This document shows, in pieces, positions 5,038-30,404 of a DNA stretch of 34,424 nt. Position 1 is the stretch's first letter. The number at the start of each line of letters is the position of its first letter. The DNA comes from an archaeon. Its GTDB lineage: Archaea; Nanobdellota; Nanobdellia; SCGC-AAA011-G17; GW2011-AR20. Location of the stretch: assembly GCA_002688355.1 (NCBI GenBank), contig NZCT01000006.1, positions 1 through 34,424 on the forward strand, read 5' to 3'. The notes below the pieces were generated by a model. That model was not told the DNA's origin, searched no databases, and saw only the letters and a list, made by a program, of their open reading frames with translations. Position numbers and translations under genes: made by a program.

Positions 5038-5904
5038 ATGAATTTAGACATAATTCTAATAATAATAACATTAATAGCTTTAATTATAGCATCAATTACA
5101 GATTTCAAAAAAAGAGAAATTCCTGATTTTCTATCTTATTCGTTATTATCAACAGTAATTTTCATAAAAATTTTACAAGCAATCATAGAAAGATCTTTTA
5201 CACCAATTATTTATGGCCTTATCGGTTTTACAGTTTTCTTCGCAATAGCTTTATTTATGTATTACACTAAACAATGGGGCGGTGGAGATTCAAAAGTTCT
5301 TATGTCCCTAGGTATAGTTTTTTCAGAATATCCAAAAACATTATTAAATTACTTTACTCCAAATTTAAACATCCCAATTTTAGCAAGTTTATTCATTAAT
5401 ATTTTATTATTAGGTTCCTTTTATGGAATTTTTTACAGCATGTTTCTAGCCATTAAAAACAGAAAAACATTTATTGAAGAATTAAAAAAAGTAAAAAGTA
5501 AAAACACAAGACATTACTTAATTTCTGCATTAATAATTTTAGCATTATCTTTTTTAATAAAAGAACCAAAACAAAGGTTATTAATCTTATTTCTAGCATT
5601 CATTTTACTAATCTCTCCTTATTTAATTACATACATAAAAATAATAGAAAAATCCTGTATGATTAAAAAAATAAAAACAAACAAACTAACAGAAGGTGAT
5701 TGGATTAATCAAGATATAAAATCTAAAGATAAAACAATCTATTCAAAAAAATCTTTAGGAGTTACAATAGAACAAATACAAAAAATTAAAAAATTAAATT
5801 TAAAGTATGTTATAGTAAAAGAAGGCATACCATTCATACCATCATTCTTACTAGCTTTTATTGTAACACTAATTTACGGAAATATATTATTATTTTTCCT
5901 TTAG
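5038..5904 (+). CDS. Archaeal type IV prepilin peptidase (A24 aspartic protease, FlaK/PibD-like)
   Basis: This 288-residue polytopic membrane protease has both catalytic aspartates of the family: D22 in SITDFKKREIPD after the first membrane helix, and D84 in the GGGD motif (WGGGDSKVLMSLG). It cuts class III signal peptides after the Gly or Ala that precedes the hydrophobic stretch, on the cytoplasmic face. The C-terminal part (about residues 205-270) is the soluble insert found in archaeal members, ending EGIPFIPSF before the last helix. No pilin genes are adjacent. Its likely substrates are the eleven KKG-type prepilins at 15829-21570. It starts from the shared TATA box at 5009-5016. Confidence 0.93.
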   Translation: MNLDIILIIITLIALIIASITDFKKREIPDFLSYSLLSTVIFIKILQAIIERSFTPIIYGLIGFTVFFAIALFMYYTKQWGGGDSKVLMSLGIVFSEYPKTLLNYFTPNLNIPILASLFINILLLGSFYGIFYSMFLAIKNRKTFIEELKKVKSKNTRHYLISALIILALSFLIKEPKQRLLILFLAFILLISPYLITYIKIIEKSCMIKKIKTNKLTEGDWINQDIKSKDKTIYSKKSLGVTIEQIQKIKKLNLKYVIVKEGIPFIPSFLLAFIVTLIYGNILLFFL

Positions 5905-11258: not shown

Positions 11259-13556
11259 ATGAAAGAAAAAGAAAAGAGGGAAGAAACTAAAAAAGACATC
11301 TTCACAGTTACAAGAGAAGGAGATGAAAGTATTCTAAAAATAAATTTTACTTCCTCTACTCAAGCCCCAAGTATAGAAAATTCTCACTCAACCATGGCTT
11401 TAGTCATTGACGCTCTAGTTGAAAATCCTGAAGTACACAGAATAATTTTCCAAGCAAGAAGAAATTACATTTATGATTATAAACAAACTCAAATAATATT
11501 AGAAATTTCAAATATTTACAAATTTTTAATAAGGCAAAAGAAAGTAGTAACTTTATCTTTACTAAACGGAATCCCTGGTTTAGATCTTTACTTAAACTCT
11601 TGGAAAAATAATTTACAAAATATAATTATTAATTTATTAAGATCTGATCCAATTGGCGCTTATGTAGAAGTAAAAAGATTGATTAGAGAAGAAAGAATAG
11701 CAACTAAGAAAAGCAAAAATCCTGAAGAAGTGGATCTAAGAACAAAATACTTACAAATCCTAGAATATTTATACAATTTATTAGATGACACAACAATAAT
11801 CAAATTAGTAAAAGATAGTTTATCTGGACACATAATTGGTTCAAGATCAATATATAAAAATGTCTTTCGTCCTTTAATTACTCCAGATTTTATGTTCACA
11901 AGATTAATGGCCTCACCTCCTCTAGATGGAGAAGAAATGGATGCATATTCTCTAGACAAAGAAACTGAAGTTAATATTTTCAAAACTCCAGGAAATATAA
12001 AATATCTCTACCATTTAAGTCCTCCAGAATTTAAAATAGATGAAGACAAATATGAAATTCTAGATATAGCAAGACAAGCTATGGTAGAACACACTCCAAG
12101 CAAAGAAGAATTTGCAGATCCAGGAAAAGTAAGATCAAATTTTTTCAATATAGGCAGAGATCTAATCCAAGAACTTGCTGAATCTAGAAATGTAGAATTA
12201 TCTTACAAAGAATCTGAAGATCTTGCAAAAATCTTAGTTCGTTATACAATAGGCTTTGGACAAATTGAAATTTTATTAAAAGATCCAAAAGTCCAAGATA
12301 TCTCTATAAATTCCCCAATAGGAGAAACTCCAATATTTATTGTACATCAAGATTATGATGAATGTGTTACAAATATTTACCCTGCAAAAGAAGATGGAGA
12401 ATCATGGGCAACTAAATTTAGATTACTTTCCGGAAGACCATTAGACGAAGCAAACCCAGTTCTAGATACAGAATTAGAATTACCATGGTCTCGTGCTAGA
12501 GTAGCAATAATCTCAAAACCATTAAGTCCATCTGGTTTAGCTTACGCTCTAAGAAGACATAGAGATAACCCATGGACGTACCCATTATTTATTAAAAACA
12601 AAATGATGAATCCTTTAGCAGCTGGCTTACTAAGTTTTATTGTTGATGGCGGAAGATCATTATTATTTGCAGGCACTAGATCTTCTGGTAAAACTTCTAT
12701 CTTAGGTTCAACAATGGTAGAAATAATGAGAAAGTATAGGATTATTAATATTGAAGACGTCGACGAATTACCAAGCAAAGCTCTAAGAAAATTAGGTTAC
12801 AATATTCAATCAATGAAAGTAAGAAGCGCTTTAACAAAAGGTGGCGCAGAATTAGGAGCTGATGAAGGAATAAGAACAAGTCTAAGAATGGGAGATTCCT
12901 CATTAATTGTAGGCGAGATAAGATCTACAGATGCCCTAGCACTCTACGAAGCAATGAGAATTGGAGCTTTAGCTAACGTAGTAGCTGGAACAATCCATGG
13001 AGCAGATCCTTATTCTGTTTATGATAGAGTTGTTAATGATTTAAAAGTTCCAAAAACAAGTTTCAAAGCCACAGATATTATTATAGTTAGTAACCCTGTA
13101 AAAAGTGCAGACGGATTACACAAATGGAGAAGAATCTTAAGTATAACAGAAGTAAGAAAACATTGGGAAGATGATCCTCTAAAAGAGAATGGTTTCATAG
13201 ATTTAATGAAATATGATTCAAAAGAAGACACACTAAAACCAACAGATGATTTAATTAATGGAGAAAGTAATGTCTTAAAATCCATTGCAGGGAATATAAA
13301 AGATTATGTTGGAAACTGGGACGCGGTCTGGAATAATATTTTATTAAGAGCAAGAATAAAAGAAGCAATAGTAAACTACTCAACAAAATTAAAAAGAAAT
13401 GATTTACTAGAAGCCAAATTTACAATTTTAAGTAATGACATGTTCCATCAAATTAGTGATAAAGTTAAAAACGAAACTGGTAATTTAGATAATAAAAAAA
13501 TCTTTTTTGAATGGGAAAACTGGTTAAAGAGAGAAATTAAAAAACAAACAGTTTAA
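11259..13556 (+). CDS. Type IV pilus/archaellum-type secretion ATPase (FlaI/GspE family), long form
   Basis: This 765-residue cytoplasmic ATPase powers assembly of pilins. The C-terminal half is the motor: Walker A GTRSSGKTS near residue 472, an IINIEDVDELP acidic box, Walker B SLIVGEIRS near 547, and a His box with AGTIHGADPYS. The N2 domain includes LLKDPKVQDISINSP (about residue 345). The protein is about 200 residues longer than FlaI, with an extra N-terminal part (1-260) that I cannot assign and a 130-residue C-terminal tail. It is followed after 18 nt by the platform protein gene. Overall it is closer to archaeal pilus/secretion ATPases than to bacterial PilB, since there is no tetracysteine zinc motif. 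Confidence 0.93.
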   Translation: MKEKEKREETKKDIFTVTREGDESILKINFTSSTQAPSIENSHSTMALVIDALVENPEVHRIIFQARRNYIYDYKQTQIILEISNIYKFLIRQKKVVTLSLLNGIPGLDLYLNSWKNNLQNIIINLLRSDPIGAYVEVKRLIREERIATKKSKNPEEVDLRTKYLQILEYLYNLLDDTTIIKLVKDSLSGHIIGSRSIYKNVFRPLITPDFMFTRLMASPPLDGEEMDAYSLDKETEVNIFKTPGNIKYLYHLSPPEFKIDEDKYEILDIARQAMVEHTPSKEEFADPGKVRSNFFNIGRDLIQELAESRNVELSYKESEDLAKILVRYTIGFGQIEILLKDPKVQDISINSPIGETPIFIVHQDYDECVTNIYPAKEDGESWATKFRLLSGRPLDEANPVLDTELELPWSRARVAIISKPLSPSGLAYALRRHRDNPWTYPLFIKNKMMNPLAAGLLSFIVDGGRSLLFAGTRSSGKTSILGSTMVEIMRKYRIINIEDVDELPSKALRKLGYNIQSMKVRSALTKGGAELGADEGIRTSLRMGDSSLIVGEIRSTDALALYEAMRIGALANVVAGTIHGADPYSVYDRVVNDLKVPKTSFKATDIIIVSNPVKSADGLHKWRRILSITEVRKHWEDDPLKENGFIDLMKYDSKEDTLKPTDDLINGESNVLKSIAGNIKDYVGNWDAVWNNILLRARIKEAIVNYSTKLKRNDLLEAKFTILSNDMFHQISDKVKNETGNLDNKKIFFEWENWLKREIKKQTV

Positions 13557-13574: not shown

Positions 13575-15788
13575 ATGCCAAAAGATGTAGATGATATTTT
13601 AGCAAAGTACAAAGAGAAACTAGAAAGTAAAGTAAAATCAGAAATTTCTCCACAAGCTATTGAAAATTACAGACCAAGCAAAGGCTCTTCAAAAGAATAT
13701 TTACTTTTTAAAAAAGAACTAACATCAAGAAAAAGATCTGCATATGAAAATTTATGTAACTCTTCTGAAAGATTAATAAAAATAAAACCAAAAGAAAAAG
13801 ATTATATAAAACTTAAAAAAAATATTGATACTTGCCACTTAAACATTAACCCAGAAGGTGCAGCTTCTTTTGCAACTTTAACAGTTATAATTTTAGTCTT
13901 CTTAAGTCTTTTAATTGGTGCAGTTTCAATTCTAACATCTGATTTTACAATAGGAAAATTATTAATACCTTTAATCTTAATCTTAATCTCAGTTTTAATT
14001 CTAAAACCATTAACAAATATTCCAATTTATATTGCTAACAAATGGCGTTTACGAGCAAGCAATCAAATGGTCTTATGTATTTTATATATTGTAATGTTTA
14101 TGCGCCATACTTCTAATTTAGAACATGGCTTACGGTTCGCGATAGAACACATAGGAAATCCATTAGCTTTAGATTTAAGAAAAGTTTTTTGGGACATTCA
14201 AACAGGAAAATATTCAACACTTAAAAAATCCTTAGATGCTTATCTAATTTCCTGGCGTGATTATAACCTTGAGTTCGTAGAATCTTTTCATTTAATCGAA
14301 GGTTCACTTTATGAAAAAGCTGAAGAACGTCGCGTTAACGTTCTAGAAAAAGCTCTTGACGTTATGTTAGATGGAACATACGAAAAAATGCTCCATTATG
14401 CTCAAGAATTAAAAAATCCTATAACAGTTTTACACATGTTAGGAATTATCCTACCAATTTTAGGTTTAGTTATTTTGCCTTTATTTGGATCTTTAATAGA
14501 AACAGCTGCAGGAATAAAAATATTCGCTTTGTTTCTAGGTTACAATATTATCTTACCTTTTGTAGTTTACATTATCGGTAATAACATTTTAGCAAAAAGA
14601 CCAACAGGATTTTCAGAATCTAATTTAATGGAGAAGAACCCAGAACTAAGTAAATATCAAAATTTAATTATTAACCTAGGAAAAAGAGAATTACAAATTA
14701 ATCCTTTTTGGATTTCTCTTATTTTAGGTTTTACAATTGCAATAATAGGAGTATTTCCTTTACTACTTCATTTTTCAGGGGTAGATTTCCAATTCCTAGG
14801 TTCAAATTTCATAGATTATAGATTAGAAGGTGGCCAACCTTGTGCATTAGGAGAAACATGTTACGGCCCTTTCGGTGCAGGTGCTGTTTTACTAAGTTTA
14901 TTTTTCCCATTAGGTATAGCAATAGGAATTGCCTTATATTATAAAATAAGAACAAGAAAATTAATAATATTAAGAAATGAAACTAAAAAACTAGAGCTAG
15001 AATTCTCAGGAGGTTTATTTCAATTAGGAAACAGAGTTGGAGATAATATCCCAATGGAAGTTGCTTTCGGAGAAGTTGGAGAAAGTATGAAAGGAACACC
15101 AACAGGAAATTTCTTCTCAAAAGTTTATAATAATATAAAAAAAATAGGCACTTCTTTAGATCAAGCTATTTTTAACAAAGATTATGGTGCAATTTGGTAT
15201 TATCCTTCTTCACTAATAGAAACAAGTATGAAAGTAGTTGTGGAAACAACAAAGAAAGGTCCAGAAATTGTCTCAAGATCATTAATAAGTATTTCAACAT
15301 ACGTTAACAGAATCCATCAAGTAAATGAACGCGTAAAAGATTTATTAAGTGAAGTAATCTCAAGTATGAAAAGTCAAATTTCTTTTCTCACTCCAATAAT
15401 TGCCGGCATCGTAGTCGGAATAACAGCAATGATAGTAAATATTTTAGGAAAATTAAGTTCTTTATTATCAGGAGGATCTTTAACCCAAGGTGCAGATTCT
15501 GCAAATACTCAAGTTGCAAATTTAGGTGCTATCGTTTCTCTATTTGATATTCCAAATATTATTCCAAGTTATTACTTACAATTAATAGTAGGAGTTTACG
15601 TTATTCAAATGACAATAATTCTAACTTTCCTTGTTAATAGCATTGAAAATGGTGTAGATAAATTAAATGAAAAACACAGAATTAGTAAAAATCTACTAAC
15701 AAGCCTAGGTTTATATTTTATTGTAGCTTTAGTCGTTACTTTAATCTTTAATTTATTAGTAAGCAGTATTAAATTTGGTTCAATCTAA
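13575..15788 (+). CDS. Type IV pilus platform membrane protein (FlaJ/TadC family), long form
   Basis: The 737-residue integral membrane protein contains two T2SSF-like cytoplasmic helical domains (about 155-280 and 470-590) between groups of membrane helices near 100-150, 280-335, 375-400, 430-455, 595-620, 660-685 and 712-735. The first domain has RHTSNLEHGLRFAIEHIGNP and the second has QLGNRVGDNIPMEVAFGEV, typical of FlaJ-type platforms. A basic N-terminal cytoplasmic region of about 95 residues is present. It should anchor the ATPase and receive processed pilins. AGAGGAAA at 13563-13570 before the ATG gives a ribosome site. A T-rich stretch at 15809-15828 follows. Confidence 0.92.
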   Translation: MPKDVDDILAKYKEKLESKVKSEISPQAIENYRPSKGSSKEYLLFKKELTSRKRSAYENLCNSSERLIKIKPKEKDYIKLKKNIDTCHLNINPEGAASFATLTVIILVFLSLLIGAVSILTSDFTIGKLLIPLILILISVLILKPLTNIPIYIANKWRLRASNQMVLCILYIVMFMRHTSNLEHGLRFAIEHIGNPLALDLRKVFWDIQTGKYSTLKKSLDAYLISWRDYNLEFVESFHLIEGSLYEKAEERRVNVLEKALDVMLDGTYEKMLHYAQELKNPITVLHMLGIILPILGLVILPLFGSLIETAAGIKIFALFLGYNIILPFVVYIIGNNILAKRPTGFSESNLMEKNPELSKYQNLIINLGKRELQINPFWISLILGFTIAIIGVFPLLLHFSGVDFQFLGSNFIDYRLEGGQPCALGETCYGPFGAGAVLLSLFFPLGIAIGIALYYKIRTRKLIILRNETKKLELEFSGGLFQLGNRVGDNIPMEVAFGEVGESMKGTPTGNFFSKVYNNIKKIGTSLDQAIFNKDYGAIWYYPSSLIETSMKVVVETTKKGPEIVSRSLISISTYVNRIHQVNERVKDLLSEVISSMKSQISFLTPIIAGIVVGITAMIVNILGKLSSLLSGGSLTQGADSANTQVANLGAIVSLFDIPNIIPSYYLQLIVGVYVIQMTIILTFLVNSIENGVDKLNEKHRISKNLLTSLGLYFIVALVVTLIFNLLVSSIKFGSI

Positions 15789-15931: not shown

Positions 15932-16918
15932 ATGTTAAATAAAAAAGGTTCAATTAGCTGGAATTTCGCAGTTAAACTAACTCTTGCAATAATTGCAATG
16001 GGCATTATAACAATTGTAGGTTATCAATTTTACATTTTAGGAAGTACTGAAAATCCAGCTTGCACTTCTTGGATAACTCTTCAAGCAGCTAAAAAAGGTG
16101 CAACATTAAATTTTTTAGGTATAGACATTCCTCCTTCTGGAGAAAATGGAAATATCTATACTGATAATTCTCCTTGTATAACTACAAGAGAAAAAATAAA
16201 AGAGAAAGATGTAAATGATCAAAATGATTTACATAAAAAAATAGCTGATAATATGTATTATTGTTGGCGACAGTATGGAGAAGGAGAAATAGATTTTTAT
16301 AGCAATTTAGATTTTGGATCTGGAAATTCATACTGTAGAGTCTGTTCAGATATTTACCTAGATGAAGATGTAAAAGATCAAGAAATAGATATTGATGAAT
16401 TTGAAATATTTTTAAGTAATGAATTTACTCCAAATAAAAAAGACAAGTATATAGATTTTTTCTTAAAAGGAGCAAGTGATCAAATAGACTTTGGGACAGG
16501 TAAACTCAAACTAACTCAAAATAATCATTTATATAGCATGTTTTCAATTACAAAAACAGCAGTTAGGCAAGAAAATCCAAACGATATAACTGAAGAAGGA
16601 CTTATATCTGCAATTCCAGCAGCAGCATTAACAGGTGGAGCATGTTATGCTGGCATAGTAGCCGGTGGAAAATTAGGTGGTTTAATCAGTCTTGTATCAG
16701 GTGGTTCACTTGCGCCAATTTTAGTACCAGGGGGATCCCTTTTAGGTTGCGCAATTGGTATGGGAGGCACACTTTTAACTATAGCAGGAGATAAAGTACC
16801 AACACTAATTTTATATAACGATGATCCAGAGCAATTCAAAAATTCATGTGATTCAGTAATAATAAACTTAAAAGATGAAAAAGATTTTGAACTTTTCAAG
16901 AACATAGAAGGTAAATAA
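15932..16918 (+). CDS. Large class III prepilin-like protein with glycine-rich hydrophobic segment (328 aa)
   Basis: The N terminus MLNKKG, SISWN and a hydrophobic helix (15-35) form a class III signal. The ectodomain has several cysteines, including C-W-R-Q-Y-G-E-G and YCRVCSDIYLDEDV (CxxC), a pattern I associate with pilin-like proteins of DPANN archaea. Residues about 225-290 form an unusual second hydrophobic region, rich in Gly and Ala (LTGGACYAGIVAGGKLGGLI and GGSLLGCAIGMGG), that could span or insert into a membrane. The protein then ends with a charged 40-residue tail. It is probably a minor or tip component. The function of the glycine-rich part is unknown. Confidence 0.82.
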   Translation: MLNKKGSISWNFAVKLTLAIIAMGIITIVGYQFYILGSTENPACTSWITLQAAKKGATLNFLGIDIPPSGENGNIYTDNSPCITTREKIKEKDVNDQNDLHKKIADNMYYCWRQYGEGEIDFYSNLDFGSGNSYCRVCSDIYLDEDVKDQEIDIDEFEIFLSNEFTPNKKDKYIDFFLKGASDQIDFGTGKLKLTQNNHLYSMFSITKTAVRQENPNDITEEGLISAIPAAALTGGACYAGIVAGGKLGGLISLVSGGSLAPILVPGGSLLGCAIGMGGTLLTIAGDKVPTLILYNDDPEQFKNSCDSVIINLKDEKDFELFKNIEGK

Positions 16919-16920
16919 TA

Positions 16921-17079
16921 ATGTTAACTAAAAAAGGAGAATGGGGATGGGAAGAAATATCAAAAATAATTATTGCACTCATAGTTCTTGCAGTATTAGT
17001 TTTACTTGCTTTTACATTCAAAGATAAAATATTAGATCTAATAGAAAAATTAAAAGATATTTTTAATGCTAAAAGATGA
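16921..17079 (+). CDS. Small class III prepilin-like protein (52 aa)
   Basis: It starts 2 nt after the previous stop and encodes MLTKKG, EWGWEEIS, a hydrophobic helix (about 14-32) and a short amphipathic helix (KDKILDLIEKLKDIF). The stop TGA overlaps the next ATG (ATGATGA region at 17076-17079), so it is translationally coupled to the next pilin gene. The overall shape (signal, helix, short charged tail) suits a filament-forming small pilin. Confidence 0.8.
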   Translation: MLTKKGEWGWEEISKIIIALIVLAVLVLLAFTFKDKILDLIEKLKDIFNAKR

Positions 17080-17660
17080 TGAACAAAAAAGGTTTAGGTT
17101 TTAAAACAATTGGAGCAATTATACTAATACTATTTGTTTTAGCAACAATTTTAGCTGTATTAAATTCAACTTCAAGTAAATTATGGGAACCTCTAAAAGA
17201 AATTTTTGGTTTTGGATATGATGGACCTGATTTTGCAACTTTAAATGAAGAAGCAATTTCAAATTTTGATGTTATGATGGAAGACATTAATACTTGTCTC
17301 TCCTCTGAAAAAGCCGAATGTGGTTGCTCCATAAGTTTTAATGGCTTAGCAGAACATCATGCAATAAAAACAGATAACTCTAAAATTTTCATGCTAAACA
17401 TCAAAGGTGGAAATGAAATAACTATGGATAGTGCAGAAATAAATAATTTAAATTGTTACATTGATAATGATTTTAAATCAAATGAATTAAAATCAAATGA
17501 AAGAATAAAATTCAATGAAAAAACACCATACATAGATATTTCTCTATGGTTTGATTTAGATTTTAAATACAAATATAACGTTTACAAAAAAGGAGATCAA
17601 TTATGTTGGTTAACAAATAAAGTAAATAACAACAATTTTGATTTAATAAACAAATGCTAA
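17076..17660 (+). CDS. Class III prepilin-like protein with Cys-containing ectodomain (194 aa)
   Basis: The start MMNKKG, LGFKT, and a hydrophobic helix (12-30) mark a class III prepilin. The ectodomain is polar with cysteines in NTCLSSEKAECGCSISF, LNCYID, QLCWLT and the C-terminal NKC, so at least two disulfides are possible outside the cell. No known binding domain is recognised. Its ATG overlaps the end of the 52-aa pilin gene by 4 nt. Confidence 0.82.
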   Translation: MMNKKGLGFKTIGAIILILFVLATILAVLNSTSSKLWEPLKEIFGFGYDGPDFATLNEEAISNFDVMMEDINTCLSSEKAECGCSISFNGLAEHHAIKTDNSKIFMLNIKGGNEITMDSAEINNLNCYIDNDFKSNELKSNERIKFNEKTPYIDISLWFDLDFKYKYNVYKKGDQLCWLTNKVNNNNFDLINKC

Positions 17661-17673
17661 AATAATAGAAAAA

Positions 17674-17682
17674 TTTATATAA
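17674..17682 (+). promoter_or_regulatory. Promoter and SD region of the six-Cys pilin gene
   Basis: TTTATATAA is followed about 50 nt later by the ATG at 17733, with GAGGTG at 17721-17726 (6-nt spacing). This predicts a leader of about 30 nt with a good Shine-Dalgarno site, unlike the coupled neighbours, so this gene may be expressed separately and strongly. Confidence 0.55.
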
Positions 17683-17732
17683 GAACTTTATTATTTATCT
17701 TTATCAAATATATTACTAAAGAGGTGCATTAA

Positions 17733-18110
17733 ATGCTAAAAAATAAAAAAGGTGCAGAACTTTCTATGAATATTATAGTTATATCTATTATAGTCATTGT
17801 TGTTCTTGTTGTCATGGTTGCTTTCTTTTTAGGATCTTTTAAACCACCAGGAGGCGGAGGTGTTACACCAGACCCATTACCCTATCATATAGAAATTTGT
17901 AGTGCTGATTGTAGATTAGCACAAGCATTCACAACAGATAGTGCAAAGGCAGCATCAAGTTATTGTAGGAAAACAATAAATGTTGACGAAGATGGTGATG
18001 GATCAGCAGATATCAAAGCACATTGTTACTCTAGTCATTTAGGTGTTGAAGACTGTGATGGTGTAAGAGGATTATGTATTGAAAATCCTGAAGAGTCACT
18101 TTCAAGATAA
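17733..18110 (+). CDS. Class III pilin with six-Cys, Ca-loop ectodomain; candidate major pilin (125 aa)
   Basis: The signal is MLKNKKG, AELSM, then a very hydrophobic helix (14-33). A Pro/Gly linker (PPGGGG) leads to a compact head with six cysteines (ICSADC, SYC, AHC, DC, LC). The head also holds DEDGDGSAD, which fits a DxDxDGxxD calcium-binding loop as in dockerins and thrombospondin type 3 repeats. Its separate promoter and SD, and the small disulfide-rich head, suggest a major filament subunit, which is inference. Its TAA stop overlaps the ATG of the next gene by one base. Confidence 0.85.
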   Translation: MLKNKKGAELSMNIIVISIIVIVVLVVMVAFFLGSFKPPGGGGVTPDPLPYHIEICSADCRLAQAFTTDSAKAASSYCRKTINVDEDGDGSADIKAHCYSSHLGVEDCDGVRGLCIENPEESLSR

Positions 18111-18304
18111 TGAAAAAAGCAGAACTAACATTACAAACAATAGCAATAGCGATATTAGTTTTATTAGTTCTTGTTGTCTTGATTGTTGCATTCAAAAGCC
18201 AAATAGCTAGCTTAATCGAAGGTTTTACAGATTTAATTTCAACGACAACAGATCAGGCTTCAAAAACTGCATCAACAATAGATGCTAATGCAATAACGAA
18301 ATAA
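18110..18304 (+). CDS. Small class III prepilin-like protein (64 aa)
   Basis: MKKA, ELTLQ and a long hydrophobic helix (10-28) fit the class III pattern, with Ala in place of Gly before the cut. The tail is Ser/Thr-rich (STTTDQASKTASTIDA), short, and has no Cys. It overlaps the previous gene by one base (TAATG) and is followed after 1 nt by the next, so it is made with the candidate major pilin. It could be a second filament-core subunit. Confidence 0.8.
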   Translation: MKKAELTLQTIAIAILVLLVLVVLIVAFKSQIASLIEGFTDLISTTTDQASKTASTIDANAITK

Positions 18305-18305
18305 A

Positions 18306-19418
18306 ATGAATAAAAATGGAGCTCTTGAATTAATCTGGATTGCTTTCGGTATCTTAATTGCCATAGGTCTTCTTATATTTGTTGTATTACCCAACCTAGA
18401 TTATCTTTCTAGTATCTTTAATTATGGTTCAGAAGAAACAGAAATATATAAAGCAAATCCAATTCCTATTCCAGCTGAAGAAGCAAAAAATATAGAACCC
18501 CATTTAGATAAAATAAAAGGCAATAATAAAAATTTAATAATATCTCTAATTGCAAAAGTCTCAAAAGGTAATAAAAATTTCATTTCAGATTGTGCTTCCG
18601 TTGGTTTAATGTCGATAACACCAGAAGTTGCAGTTTTGAACAATCTAAAAATATTCGAAACATCTAAGCAAAGCGAACTAAAAAATTGTGACAATAAAGA
18701 ACTAAATCTAGAATACTCAAATAATTTAAGAGAAGAAATAAAAGATAAAGAAGAACAAGAAATAATAGAAATAGATCAAAGATTTAATACAGATTTAAAC
18801 ATTAAAGAAGGATCTGAACATATAAATTTATTAATAGAGAGATACAAAAATAAACAATTTGCATTAGCAGCATATTATTACAGTTCATCTAGATTTGAAA
18901 GCACATGTAAAAATAATTTTAAAGTTTGTAAACATAATGACAAGGAAATGGCAGATTTTATAGATACAATTCTTTCTTATGAAGCACATTTAAATCAAGA
19001 ATCAGCAAATAGAGTTCCAAATCCAGAAGAGGAAATAAAGATTAGAAATGAATTAAAAACATTAAGCAATAACAGAATTTCTTTCAACCATCCTAATGCA
19101 TGTCAGGCAACTCAAACAACAGGATGTACAAGTCTAGAAGGTTTACCACAATTAGCTATAGATTTCCTAGTTAAATTAACAGAAGATTGTGATTGTGACA
19201 TCGTAATTACTGGTGGAACAGAAGGAGGACATCAAACACATGGCCCAGGGAAATCAATAGTAGATCTAAGGAAAACTTCAGAATTAAAAAACTATGTTCT
19301 TTCCAATTCCGCAACATCAGAACAAATAAGTTCAGGTAGGAGATACAGAGTAGGTTCAAACTCCTATGTAGAAGAAGAAGATCATTGGCATGTTATTTTT
19401 AGAGAACTTAACACATAA
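18306..19418 (+). CDS. Pilin-like protein with degenerate lytic-transglycosylase-like and M15 peptidase-like domains (370 aa)
   Basis: The N terminus MNKNG plus a helix (8-30) is pilin-like. Residues about 60-195 resemble the SLT lysozyme fold: LIISLIAKVSKGN, CASVGLMSITPEVA and later NTDLNIKEGSEHINLLIERY with FALAAYY line up with the SLT pattern (AKES, GLMQ.P.TA, D..NI..G..YL..L, ALAAYN). The catalytic Glu of AKES is V85. Residues about 275-367 resemble M15-type zinc peptidases: H309/H312 in GGHQTHGPGKSIVD, D320, and HWH at 360-362. Both domains face outside the cell in this topology. A cell-wall binding or cutting role is inferred; the organism is not expected to make peptidoglycan. Confidence 0.78.
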   Translation: MNKNGALELIWIAFGILIAIGLLIFVVLPNLDYLSSIFNYGSEETEIYKANPIPIPAEEAKNIEPHLDKIKGNNKNLIISLIAKVSKGNKNFISDCASVGLMSITPEVAVLNNLKIFETSKQSELKNCDNKELNLEYSNNLREEIKDKEEQEIIEIDQRFNTDLNIKEGSEHINLLIERYKNKQFALAAYYYSSSRFESTCKNNFKVCKHNDKEMADFIDTILSYEAHLNQESANRVPNPEEEIKIRNELKTLSNNRISFNHPNACQATQTTGCTSLEGLPQLAIDFLVKLTEDCDCDIVITGGTEGGHQTHGPGKSIVDLRKTSELKNYVLSNSATSEQISSGRRYRVGSNSYVEEEDHWHVIFRELNT

Positions 19419-19463
19419 TTCAACTAAAGTAAATATTAAAAAGGATTAAACAATAAAAAATAT

Positions 19464-19889
19464 ATGAATAAAAAAGGATCTGAAGCAGTACAATTATTAT
19501 TAGTTACATATTTAATTCTAAGTATAATAATCTTAATCTCTGGATTATATATAGTTCAAAAAAATTTAACAGGTGCAGGTGCATTAAAAGAATTTATTGT
19601 AAGAGATACTTCCATGTTAGTAAACACAATTCACACACCAACTGGAAACCTAGAAATAAAATACAACTTAAATCATCAATATAATTTTGATTTTAAAGAA
19701 AGCCAAACAAAAATAAAATCAGGGAATCAAATAGAAAGGAAAAATACCTATCCTTATTTTACAAATGACAAATACATTTTAGATTCTTCAGTAAAAAATT
19801 TTGAAAAGAAAGATGAAACATGTAACATAATATTCACAAAATCAGACAATGAGATAACCATAGAAAAAGGAGATCAATGTAATGCTTAA
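19464..19889 (+). CDS. Class III prepilin-like protein (141 aa)
   Basis: MNKKG, SEAVQ and a hydrophobic helix (11-30) form the pilin signal. The ectodomain is polar, basic-acidic and probably beta-rich, with two cysteines (ETCNIIF and DQCNA at the very end) that could pair. A possible TATA element AAATATTAAAA (about 19430-19440) precedes it, so a new transcript may start here. It overlaps the next gene by 8 nt. Confidence 0.8.
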   Translation: MNKKGSEAVQLLLVTYLILSIIILISGLYIVQKNLTGAGALKEFIVRDTSMLVNTIHTPTGNLEIKYNLNHQYNFDFKESQTKIKSGNQIERKNTYPYFTNDKYILDSSVKNFEKKDETCNIIFTKSDNEITIEKGDQCNA

Positions 19890-20376
19890 TAAAAAAGGAG
19901 ATTTTAACGCAACTAAAGAATTGTTTCTTTCATTACCTAAGATATTTACAGTAGCAATGTTTTTCTTATTTCTAATTTTTGCAGTAGATAATGGTTCTAA
20001 AAAAAATACTGACATTTCAGAAATAGAATCATTCACACTTAAAAACACTTTATTCTATTCAGATTGCATTACAATTCAAGAAAATAATAGAGTAATTCCC
20101 GGCTCAATAGATCTAGAAAAATTTAACGAAGATAACATAAAAAATTGTCTAAACAATAATATCTATGGAATGAAACTCTCTTTAAATTATAAAGATCAAG
20201 AAAAAATAATTGTAATAAATGAAGCAATAGAACAACAAAAAGTTTTCTGTTTTGATAATAATCAATTATACTGTGATAATAGAGAATATTACATTGGACA
20301 AATAGAAGATTCAAATAACATAGAGAAAGGTACTCTAAAAATAGAATTAACAAAATTAAGAAGATCCACACTATAA
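19882..20376 (+). CDS. Class III prepilin-like protein (164 aa)
   Basis: The signal MLNKKG, DFNAT is followed by a hydrophobic helix (18-37) and an ectodomain with cysteines in YSDCIT, KNCLNN, VFCFD and LYCDN, so two disulfides are possible. It overlaps the preceding gene by 8 nt and is 1 nt from the next. No recognisable domain is seen beyond the pilin anchor. It is probably a minor pilin or part of a tip complex. Confidence 0.8.
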   Translation: MLNKKGDFNATKELFLSLPKIFTVAMFFLFLIFAVDNGSKKNTDISEIESFTLKNTLFYSDCITIQENNRVIPGSIDLEKFNEDNIKNCLNNNIYGMKLSLNYKDQEKIIVINEAIEQQKVFCFDNNQLYCDNREYYIGQIEDSNNIEKGTLKIELTKLRRSTL

Positions 20377-20377
20377 A

Positions 20378-20872
20378 ATGCTAAACAAAAAAGCCCAAGA
20401 AGAAGGAATAACATTAATCTTCATGCCAATAATAATCACAACAATTCTAGTAGTTTTCTTCTTAGTCTTTACATATGGTGATATCTCAAATGATGAAATA
20501 GAAATCACTATTAAAACTTCAGAAACAAATGAAGACACAATAATTTTAATGAATTACCTAAGATCAACAGTAGATTACAAAAATAATAAAATAAAAATGT
20601 TCCAATTATTAAACACTAAAGATGAACTACCTATAGAAACAAACACAAAAGAAATCTTTAATACATACTGCCAAGAAGATATAAACGCACCACAAAAAAA
20701 CAAATGTTTCTGGGAATTATTTATTAATTATGAAAATAAGGAATTACATTTTTCAGGTGGAACTCGAAGAGGTTTACTAGGTCTAGAAGACAAACAAGAT
20801 TCTTCCTTAACATTCAAAGATGAAAATAATAAAGAAATAGAAATAAAATTTAGGAGATACATAATAGAATGA
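20378..20872 (+). CDS. Class III prepilin-like protein (164 aa)
   Basis: MLNKKA, QEEGI and a hydrophobic helix (11-31) mark the signal, with Ala at the cut position. The ectodomain has two cysteines (TYCQED and NKCFWEL) and a FSGGTRRGLLGLEDK turn-rich region. It overlaps the next gene by 4 nt (ATGA). It has the same overall size as the previous gene but no clear sequence identity beyond the signal. Confidence 0.8.
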   Translation: MLNKKAQEEGITLIFMPIIITTILVVFFLVFTYGDISNDEIEITIKTSETNEDTIILMNYLRSTVDYKNNKIKMFQLLNTKDELPIETNTKEIFNTYCQEDINAPQKNKCFWELFINYENKELHFSGGTRRGLLGLEDKQDSSLTFKDENNKEIEIKFRRYIIE

Positions 20873-21570
20873 ATAAAAAAGGTAAGTGGGGATTCCTGCA
20901 GTTTTTATTTATAACAGTTTTAATAGTGTTTTCATATGCAGCTTACTTAAATTTTTCAGATAATTCAGAATTAAATAACTTTAGACAATCTTTAGGCGAA
21001 AATCAAATAGCAGTAACAAACTTATATAAAAATTACGAATTAGACGTATTAAATAAAGAAATAATCTTAAATTACGCTATAGATAAAGCAAATAAAAAAT
21101 TCTTCCAAAATAGTGCAATATTACAGTCATGTAACAATTTATGGTCTTTTTCAAGTAATTGTGAGCCAAACTTCGAACAAAATTACATAGATTTACTAAA
21201 AGAAGAATTAGAATTTTACAATACAGAAGCAGATTCTATCAAAATAGAAAATAATGATTTAATAGTAAACTTTGGTTCTCTAGAATTTAAAACAAAAAAT
21301 GAGGTAATCGATGCAACTTATTCTAATGAAGCCACTATAACAAAGATACCACTGGACTTTACTAAACTAAACTCCATAAAATCTGAATTAAGATCATGTA
21401 TTTTAAACAATAAATTAAAAACTTGCTTTGAAAATCAACAAGAAAATAATAACATATTAACAATAAACACAGACATAAAAACAACGTATTTTCTAAACAA
21501 TAAAGTAGAAACATCAAATTTTAATTTTAAAATAGACACGAAAAACACTGGTTTAAATTCATTATTCTAA
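20869..21570 (+). CDS. Class III prepilin-like protein, last of the array (233 aa)
   Basis: The N terminus MNKKG, KWGFL and a helix (9-26) form the prepilin signal. The ectodomain has a long helical start (about 30-110), then mixed strands, with cysteines in QSCNNLW, SNCEPN, RSCILN and KTCFEN. This is the longest conventional ectodomain among the last four pilin-like genes. No known domain is recognised. About 50 nt of AT-rich DNA separate it from RPA, which has its own likely promoter. Confidence 0.8.
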   Translation: MNKKGKWGFLQFLFITVLIVFSYAAYLNFSDNSELNNFRQSLGENQIAVTNLYKNYELDVLNKEIILNYAIDKANKKFFQNSAILQSCNNLWSFSSNCEPNFEQNYIDLLKEELEFYNTEADSIKIENNDLIVNFGSLEFKTKNEVIDATYSNEATITKIPLDFTKLNSIKSELRSCILNNKLKTCFENQQENNNILTINTDIKTTYFLNNKVETSNFNFKIDTKNTGLNSLF

Positions 21571-28713: not shown

Positions 28714-29247
28714 CTATCCTTCGGGTTTAACTACATTCTCAGAAATAAATTTAATTGCTACAGATGCTATTAACAATACAACAATAGCACCTAAAACTCT
28801 TGGATGAACAATTGCATTTAACCCAACAGTAACTCTACTTTCATCATCTGGGTCCGAACCTGGAAGCTTATCGCCAAAGATTTGTGTTAAAGCAACTAAA
28901 AATAAAATTATACCAATAACCAAAACAGGCCAATACACTCTAGGATCCTCAACTGCTTTCTGCAACTCTGAATCTCGTACACCCATAAATAAAAATGCAG
29001 ATAATAAAAACATCAATAAGACTAAAAATACAACAAACCAAGGACTTACAAAATTAATAAATCTAACAGCATCTGCTGAAAATATAAACAACATTCCGAC
29101 ACAAAAAGAGATAAATAATTTAGGTACTTTATTTTCTCCCAATAACTTAAATTTATCTAAAATTGCATAAGTAACAGCTATAACTAAACCTAATGAAAAA
29201 ACAGGTGTAAAAAATTCTAGCACTCCAAGATCTAAAACAGTTGCCAT
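28714..29247 (-). CDS. Membrane paralogue 3 of a tandem triplet (177 aa)
   Basis: The N-terminal stretch GVLEFFTPVFSLGLVIAVTYAILDKFKLLGE is shared, with changes, by the two genes upstream (AILEK-x2-I-x-G). Five or so hydrophobic segments follow (near 12-32, 44-60, 67-90, 105-125 and 150-168), with a short acidic loop SDPDDESR. No known family is recognised. It lies 2 nt downstream of paralogue 2 in one operon, so the three products may form a hetero-oligomeric membrane complex, which is inference. Confidence 0.75.
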   Translation of the reverse strand: MATVLDLGVLEFFTPVFSLGLVIAVTYAILDKFKLLGENKVPKLFISFCVGMLFIFSADAVRFINFVSPWFVVFLVLLMFLLSAFLFMGVRDSELQKAVEDPRVYWPVLVIGIILFLVALTQIFGDKLPGSDPDDESRVTVGLNAIVHPRVLGAIVVLLIASVAIKFISENVVKPEG

Positions 29248-29249
29248 TT

Positions 29250-29810
29250 TTAATCTCTGTTACCAAATATCAATTTCTCCCATTTTTCAGCAGTATCTCC
29301 AAGACTTCCACTTTGTCTACCGCCACCAACAACCGCAAAGATTATTATTAGTATTATAGCTGCAACTAATAAAGTGGGCCAATATATTTGAACCCAATAA
29401 GGAACTAAAAATTCCAAATCTAACGTTGGCGCTAAGGACCAATATATAAAAATTATAGATATAACAGCACCAACAAGGAAACCTATAGGTCCCAATCCCT
29501 TATTAACATTAGCACCCAATATTCCAAACAAAACCAAAGTCATAACTAAAACTATGATAAATAAAGATATCTTAGGTAAAAAATAATTTAATCTTGAAAT
29601 TATTATAAAATTATTAACAAAAAATAAGCCTATTATTAAAGCTACGACAGCATTGATATTGGTTCTAGGTTTTGAATCTCTTTCTCCAAAAATCTTAACT
29701 TTTTCTAAAATAGCAAAAGTAATTGTAAATACTAATAAAAATGGTAAAATAAATTCATAAAATCCTATTCCTTGTAATTGATAAAATAAACTTGCTATAT
29801 CAGTTGGCAT
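29250..29810 (-). CDS. Membrane paralogue 2 of a tandem triplet (186 aa)
   Basis: It shares with its neighbours the pattern GFYEFILPFLLVFTITFAIL followed by EKVKIFGE, then a helix (VVALIIGLFFVNN) and three more hydrophobic segments. A Trp/Tyr-rich loop VPYWVQIYWP occurs before the last helix, and the C-terminal tail is polar (GGGRQSGSLGDTAEKWEKL). A GGAGG within the end of paralogue 1 lies upstream of its ATG. The function is unknown; the family appears typical of small archaea, from memory. Confidence 0.75.
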   Translation of the reverse strand: MPTDIASLFYQLQGIGFYEFILPFLLVFTITFAILEKVKIFGERDSKPRTNINAVVALIIGLFFVNNFIIISRLNYFLPKISLFIIVLVMTLVLFGILGANVNKGLGPIGFLVGAVISIIFIYWSLAPTLDLEFLVPYWVQIYWPTLLVAAIILIIIFAVVGGGRQSGSLGDTAEKWEKLIFGNRD

Positions 29811-30404
29811 TTAGCTATCCTCCTTTTTCTCTTCATCATTTCCCCCATTCCCATTTCTAGGCCCACGAGTAATAACAATGATAACAACTAAAATAATAGT
29901 TACAACAATTATACTTGTAATCACAGTACTATCAAAGTTACTAATAAAATAATCATAAACTATAGTTAAAAAACTTTTCCCTTTTGAATCTCTTATCGCT
30001 CCTAAAAAGATTAACACAATACCAACAAATAAAGCTATCACAAATCCCTTATACCAATTAGGATGTCCAGTAGAAAAGTCTAATTCTTTTGTTCCCATAA
30101 AAGCCCCAATTAATAATAAAAAACTAATTGAAACTACCAACAACAAAACAACATTAGGTAAACTTTCATTAATAATACCCACAACATTTGTAGCAGCAAC
30201 AGTCAATAGTCCAACTACAAATGCAACCATAGTATTCAAATTCTTATTAGGAACTTTCTTATCTTCAGTCCCTTCACTACCTAAAATCATAGTTTTCTCT
30301 AGAATAGCATAAACAATAGTAAAAACTAACAAAAATGGAAGTATTACATCGAATACTCCAAAGTCTCTAAAAAAATCAATTGCCCTTGTTAACGGCGAGG
30401 ACAT
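29811..30404 (-). CDS. Membrane paralogue 1 of a tandem triplet (197 aa)
   Basis: Residues 15-42 read FGVFDVILPFLLVFTIVYAI and LEKTMILG, the family signature also found in the two following genes. It has about five hydrophobic segments and a polar, acidic C-terminal tail (RGPRNGNGGNDEEKKEDS). The gene abuts the next one with no gap and follows the PRC-barrel gene by 33 nt, with a GAGAGGT ribosome site. Members probably share topology with a cytoplasmic tail. Confidence 0.75.
   Translation of the reverse strand: MSSPLTRAIDFFRDFGVFDVILPFLLVFTIVYAILEKTMILGSEGTEDKKVPNKNLNTMVAFVVGLLTVAATNVVGIINESLPNVVLLLVVSISFLLLIGAFMGTKELDFSTGHPNWYKGFVIALFVGIVLIFLGAIRDSKGKSFLTIVYDYFISNFDSTVITSIIVVTIILVVIIVITRGPRNGNGGNDEEKKEDS

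Follow-up and report, generated by a model that had tools for sequence, protein, structure and literature searches.

The archaeal gene described in this study encodes a 370-aa protein in which two domains are grafted onto a pilin: a lysozyme-like GH23/SLT domain that has lost its catalytic residues, and a C-terminal LAS/M15-like domain that is a candidate zinc metallopeptidase. The interpretation favored here, to which about even chances are given, is that the product is a modular archaeal minor pilin whose pseudo-SLT domain would bind, and whose peptidase domain would cut, the wall of a bacterial neighbor. This interpretation draws on the presence of a prepilin peptidase, an assembly ATPase and a platform protein in the window (the whole 34,424-nucleotide stretch of DNA that was analyzed), on the fixed slot of the gene in a pilin array, and on the two grafted domains themselves.

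A pilin gene within an archaeal pilus cluster

The genome is 0.96 Mb in size and 97% complete, and contains the archaeal markers RadA (over the cut-off), RPA and geranylgeranyl reductase; its size and relatives point to a DPANN archaeon. The open reading frame (ORF) that had been noted at 18306-19418 on the forward strand was recovered as such, encoding 370 aa from ATG to stop. It lies within a one-strand run comprised of a FlaI/TadA-type ATPase gene, a platform protein gene and nine pilin-like ORFs (15932-21570). The features of the pilus cluster are listed below, with the genome closest by platform protein (69% identity) designated G006.

5038..5904, forward strand: prepilin peptidase, FlaK/PibD-type (Pfam Peptidase_A24, E=2.4e-13; NCBIfam FlaK, E=1e-15)
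11259..13556, forward strand: pilus assembly ATPase, FlaI/TadA/T2SSE-type (NCBIfam FlaI, E=3e-37, and TadA, E=1.6e-30; Pfam T2SSE, E=3.4e-9)
13575..15788, forward strand: multi-TM pilus platform protein, 737 aa, TadC-like by position and topology
15932..16918, forward strand: large pilin-like protein, 328 aa, with class III leader and TM; syntenic in G006
17076..17660, forward strand: pilin-like protein, 194 aa
17733..18110, forward strand: short pilin-like protein (KKGAELSMN...), 125 aa, recognizable in most clusters examined
18110..18304, forward strand: Flp1-like small pilin, 64 aa (Pfam PF16982, E=6.7e-7, under the curated cut-off)
18306..18455, forward strand: class III prepilin-like leader and hydrophobic pilin helix of the 370-aa protein (residues ~1-50)
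18456..19055, forward strand: GH23/SLT (lysozyme-like) domain of the same protein, catalytically degenerate (residues ~55-250)
19056..19415, forward strand: C-terminal LAS/M15-like domain of the same protein, candidate zinc metallopeptidase (residues ~255-370)
19464-19889, 19882-20376, 20378-20872 and 20869-21570, forward strand: four more pilin-like ORFs with class III leaders and TM

The 737-aa platform protein had no Pfam or NCBIfam match; its gene was found in 91 of 99 relatives, heading a similar pilin array, and the four downstream pilin-like ORFs occur in the same order in G006 and other genomes. The class III prepilin anchor proposed in the sequence-only reading was borne out within this run of pilin-like ORFs, with the N-terminus MNKNG|ALELIWIAFGILIAIGLLIFVVL fitting such an anchor (cleavage site read by eye). 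The predicted cleavage site has NG, the neighboring pilins have KG, and the overall N-terminal pattern is also present in adjacent ORFs and in syntenic pilin-SLT proteins. Combined, the leader and hydrophobic helix of the protein and the ATPase, platform protein and prepilin peptidase of the window are the features by which archaeal type IV pilins are recognized. A phmmer search of the whole 370-aa protein against the PDB returned no match. Elsewhere in the window, on the reverse strand at 28714-30404, three tandem multi-TM ORFs, apparently paralogues, share the N-terminal pattern FxxFILPFLLVFTIxFAILEK....

A lysozyme-like domain without its catalytic residues

As had been claimed from the sequence, residues ~55-250 do form a genuine GH23/SLT domain of the lysozyme-like kind. 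Pfam PF01464 matches the protein with E=1.9e-8 (34.3 bits against a cut-off of 21.3), and all of the 50 PDB matches listed by Foldseek for the AlphaFold (AF2) model of residues 51-250 (pLDDT 85) are lytic transglycosylases or GH23 chitinase, with probabilities of 0.96-1.00 and a best E of 8e-4. The likeness to the soluble lytic transglycosylases of GH23 (Slt70, MltE, MltF; PF01464) includes the fold, the positions of the ES, GLMQ and AYN motifs and a Pfam score over the cut-off. However, the catalytic Glu of the ES motif, the Gln of GLMQ and the Asn of AYN are replaced here by Val85, Ser103 and Tyr191, respectively, and the domain is carried on an archaeal pilin, whereas those proteins are secreted or lipid-anchored bacterial enzymes. 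The sequence-only reading had correctly recognized the Val at the catalytic Glu position, but had overlooked the replacement of the Gln and Asn of the other two motifs.

In a residue survey, the Gln and Asn of these two other core motifs were near-invariant, and the Glu was kept in 16 of the 18 proteins for which its column was resolved. It is missing only from the 370-aa protein, which reads V/S/Y at the three positions, and from the syntenic G006 orthologue, which reads T/P/Y; neither has any of the three residues. With G006 also being the nearest genome by platform protein, a single loss in a shared ancestor would explain this most simply. Judged by these residues, the SLT domain is a pseudoenzyme of one lineage, and cleavage between MurNAc and GlcNAc is predicted to be absent because the catalytic Glu has been lost. 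Retention of the fold suggests binding rather than decay.

Pilin-SLT fusions, mostly with an intact Glu, were found in at least 11 genomes from seven families of the order; apart from the V/S/Y and T/P/Y pair, every fusion that was read retains the Glu, and the three cleft residues are kept in sister pilin-SLTs. The SLT set as a whole contained no segment conserved strongly enough to serve for a profile scan. A same-strand SLT gene lies within ~6 kb downstream of the platform gene in G000, G006, G013, G017, G025, G040, G052, G066 and G082, and pilin-fused SLTs are present in pilin arrays on broken contigs in G003 and G089; in each of these 11 genomes a pilin-like N-terminus precedes the SLT within one protein. 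By a rough estimate (~100 SLT genes, ~1-Mb genomes), fewer than one such SLT/platform neighborhood would be expected by chance. The pilin carrying the SLT follows the short KKG pilin in six genomes (G000, G003, G006, G013, G040, G066), precedes it in two (G025, G052) and is the last of the array in two others (G082, G089); the G017 pilin-SLT array ends at a contig end. In relatives without the SLT, the slot is occupied by an ordinary pilin. A degenerate SLT hidden in these slot pilins was considered and rejected, with only the hydrophobic helix having aligned.

Several additional observations were made on the pilins and SLT domains of the order. Ordinary slot pilins (L238, L239, L241, L244) carry a Cys-rich CLCLC ectodomain motif that is common across families. 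In L145 (G003:C82, 1685-2885), a KKAVSGLKSPLNFSPGFLHS segment is repeated close to the N-terminus in two adjoining pilin genes, which looks like the multiplication of a short element within pilin leaders. In many relatives (PF01464 matches of L003, L126, L129, L132 and others), the SLT domain lies inside open frames of >2000 aa, representing giant surface or secreted proteins in which the Glu is intact wherever the sequence was read.

The C-terminal domain and its bacterial relatives

The C-terminal domain was modeled by AF2 with a pLDDT of 90 and contains the zinc-ligand motif HxxG(x3-4)D followed by HxH (or HxD). The residues that had been singled out as zinc-peptidase-like (H309, H312, D320 and the HWH at 360-362) were all confirmed, and the H/D/H triad is kept in close homologues, with H312, D320 and H360, together with E306, invariant in 54 of 54 aligned sequences. 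At position 362, 25 of the 54 sequences have His and the other 29 have Asp. A His-Asp spacing of 8 goes with HxH (24/24) and a spacing of 7 with HxD (29/30), a covariation of the kind that a metal site would give.

The earlier assignment of an M15-like peptidase domain held for motif order and structural neighbors, but not for profile comparison. Against the PDB, the model was matched weakly to Desert Hedgehog and MepA (E 0.2-3.7, none <0.001; TM <0.5), with Hedgehog also among the best PDB-profile neighbors, whereas against BFVD it was matched to models of phage M15A, M15 and MepK proteins (best E=9e-3, probability 0.99, TM ~0.5). The domain family is covered by no Pfam model, and only one of 51 homologues touches M15_4 (E=0.039). 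A comparison of the family by hhalign with a small M15_4 set of four proteins gave a probability of 0.6%, the control comparison with an SLT set was negative, and no M15_3 proteins were found when sought in phage records. Relative to M15/LAS metallopeptidases and Hedgehog (VanX, MepA, MepK, M15A endolysins), the domain shares the order and spacing of H...D / HxH and some fold neighbors, but differs in lacking any Pfam or NCBIfam match, in its negative profile comparison, in a TM of ~0.5 or lower and in an extra residue between His and Asp. Because of the missing Pfam M15 match and the hhalign result, the domain is called LAS/M15-like here and is not filed as M15; on its motif order and structural neighbors, it is a candidate metallopeptidase.

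Within the phylum, a 51-row profile of the domain searched against 371 genomes matched only its own genome (0 of the 370 others). A single-sequence search of the phylum gave weak matches only, which were read as unrelated proteins, and no match was found in phages or viral contigs. The comparison of related genomes showed that the pilin-SLT architecture recurs; the full architecture is present in one genome only, because the nearest orthologue, that of G006, is without the C-terminal domain.

The family was first reached through PG_binding_1 proteins of Streptomyces plasmids, matched at 31%. A scan of the genome collection then gave 336 related stretches, and among the best 80 of these 336 the top ones belong to Patescibacteria. 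The closest relative (L034, Patescibacteria UBA3531) is 45-48% identical to the C-terminal domain; its gene is preceded by one for a TraG/VirB4-type ATPase and followed by one for a PG_binding_1 protein. In such CPR kin the N-terminus is a T4SS pilin, with PF18895 over the cut-off in all four proteins tested. The Patescibacteria proteins thus resemble the archaeal one in their homologous C-terminal domain, in HxxHGPG....D + HWH and in display on a pilin; however, their PF18895 pilin is a two-TM, VirB2-like domain that is unrelated to the archaeal class III pilin (Pfam finds no PF18895 in the 370-aa protein), and they are without an SLT domain. In actinobacterial and Chloroflexi secreted proteins, the homologous domain is fused to PG_binding_1 or GH25, linking it to wall-binding or lysozyme modules, but these proteins are of the SHxxGYKxD + HWD subtype and have no pilin. 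In a tree that is unrooted and built on a short domain, the archaeal C-terminal domain pairs with L034 (89/65) inside an otherwise-CPR set (95/83). From these sequence relationships, the module was probably gained from a Patescibacteria pool in this lineage.

The CPR members of the family (L066, L044, L046, L080 and other loci) fall into two motif subtypes, HxxHGPG....D + HxH and SHxxGYKxD + HxD, and the first His loop sometimes contains inserts. Pfam did not bear out a lysozyme-like tail that had been suspected in L042. A T4SS-pilin-like + LAS-like protein very close to that of Patescibacteria L059 is encoded by L084 (1830-2729), on a contig labeled Candidatus Pacearchaeota that is probably a misbinned CPR contig.

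Proposed function, alternatives and meaning

No Mur ligase was detected in the genome itself or in 20 relatives, whereas 12 of 14 control genomes were positive, in agreement with the previous expectation that this archaeon has no peptidoglycan; a native peptidoglycan substrate is therefore unlikely. In the proposed mechanism, the prepilin peptidase would cleave the NKNG|ALE leader and the hydrophobic helix would pack into the filament, probably near its tip, such that the SLT and C-terminal domains would be displayed outside. The degenerate SLT, with its fold kept and its cleft chemistry gone, would serve as a module for binding glycan (the peptidoglycan strand). In the C-terminal domain, H312, D320 and H360/H362 would hold a metal close to E306 and H309, and the domain would hydrolyze peptide bonds of a cell-wall substrate, either peptidoglycan or a different wall peptide. 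With no Mur ligase seen in the archaeon, the presumed substrate is the wall of a neighboring bacterium, a partner or prey, which may be cut for attachment, local breaching or nutrient scavenging. In Streptococcus sanguinis, the modular type IV pilins PilB and PilC similarly display a functional module on the filament, grafted to a small pilin part; here, the pilus is archaeal and two wall-enzyme-derived modules stand in series.

Previous literature touches on parts of this proposal. Murein transglycosylases of Woesearchaeota have been proposed as predation tools (PMC9723730); neither the passage making this proposal nor the one on haloarchaeal hydrolases in PMC12352652 describes a pilin fusion, and the passages on the Patescibacteria T4SS in PMC12102498 do not mention the C-terminal head on pilins. 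The open-licence literature yielded nothing specific on a pilin with SLT or M15 in DPANN or Patescibacteria.

Alternatively, the protein could be a pure adhesin in which neither domain is catalytic: the dead SLT would bind glycan, a Hedgehog-like LAS domain would likewise serve for binding, and the archaeon would be held to a bacterial surface by the pilus that carries them. Hedgehog, which is among the best PDB-profile and fold neighbors of the C-terminal domain, is a LAS domain generally described as a binding/signaling protein. The SLT is clearly dead, and modular adhesive pilins are common in bacteria (PMC8179133), in further agreement with an adhesin. Nevertheless, the candidate metal site, including a catalysis-like Glu and His, is kept in 54/54 homologues and covaries between subfamilies, suggesting selection on a working site, and the pure adhesin is considered rather unlikely. 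A target in the archaeon's own envelope or pilus, where the SLT fold would recognize a native glycan and the peptidase would trim S-layer or pilin glycoproteins as assembly proceeds, would be consistent with SLT domains being widespread in the order (63 of 145 genomes, with the >2000-aa frames among them), which makes archaeal use of SLT plausible, and with pilus biogenesis having its own maturation steps. This explanation is improbable, however, given a pilus that is near-universal (91/99) and a C-terminal domain that is absent from the 370 other genomes, and hence not a core assembly factor, with kin tied to bacterial-wall modules.

The head could also lyse attacking or competing bacteria, Patescibacteria included, as antagonism or defense and not for feeding or attachment. 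There is precedent in the bactericidal peptidoglycan hydrolases secreted by haloarchaea (PMC12352652), and the same module occurs in CPR, whose T4SS and pili are used on hosts (PMC12102498). A single pilin-tethered domain beside a dead glycosidase would nevertheless make a poor broadcast weapon, and no immunity or toxin genes were seen beside the 18306-19418 gene, leaving this explanation very doubtful. The isolation of the CPR-like C-terminal domain in the phylum sample might even point to an assembly artefact, with an archaeal pilin gene wrongly fused to a contig from CPR. That is scarcely credible: the junction is in frame and at a domain boundary, the flanking pilin genes on both sides match the order in G006, the C-terminal part has a GC of 0.35 and a GC3 of 0.167 that are within the local range, and the nearest CPR protein is only 48% identical.

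Returning to the wall-cutting minor pilin, a broader proposal is made tentatively and at somewhat less than even chances: that the unrelated pili of Patescibacteria and DPANN have each been equipped with this cell-wall peptidase module, and that a dead lytic transglycosylase has been kept here as a targeting lectin for the peptidase. If this is true, pili able to cut walls are carried by reduced microbes that depend on hosts in both domains of life. For the question of how symbiotic or predatory archaea of small size reach bacterial cells and breach them, the wall-enzyme domains on pilins, in at least 11 genomes of the order and with a parallel on the secretion pilins of Patescibacteria, provide concrete proteins to express and assay. 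Additionally, this gene records what is likely an exchange of a pilin head module between domains, as well as a pseudoenzyme arising beside active-looking sister copies.
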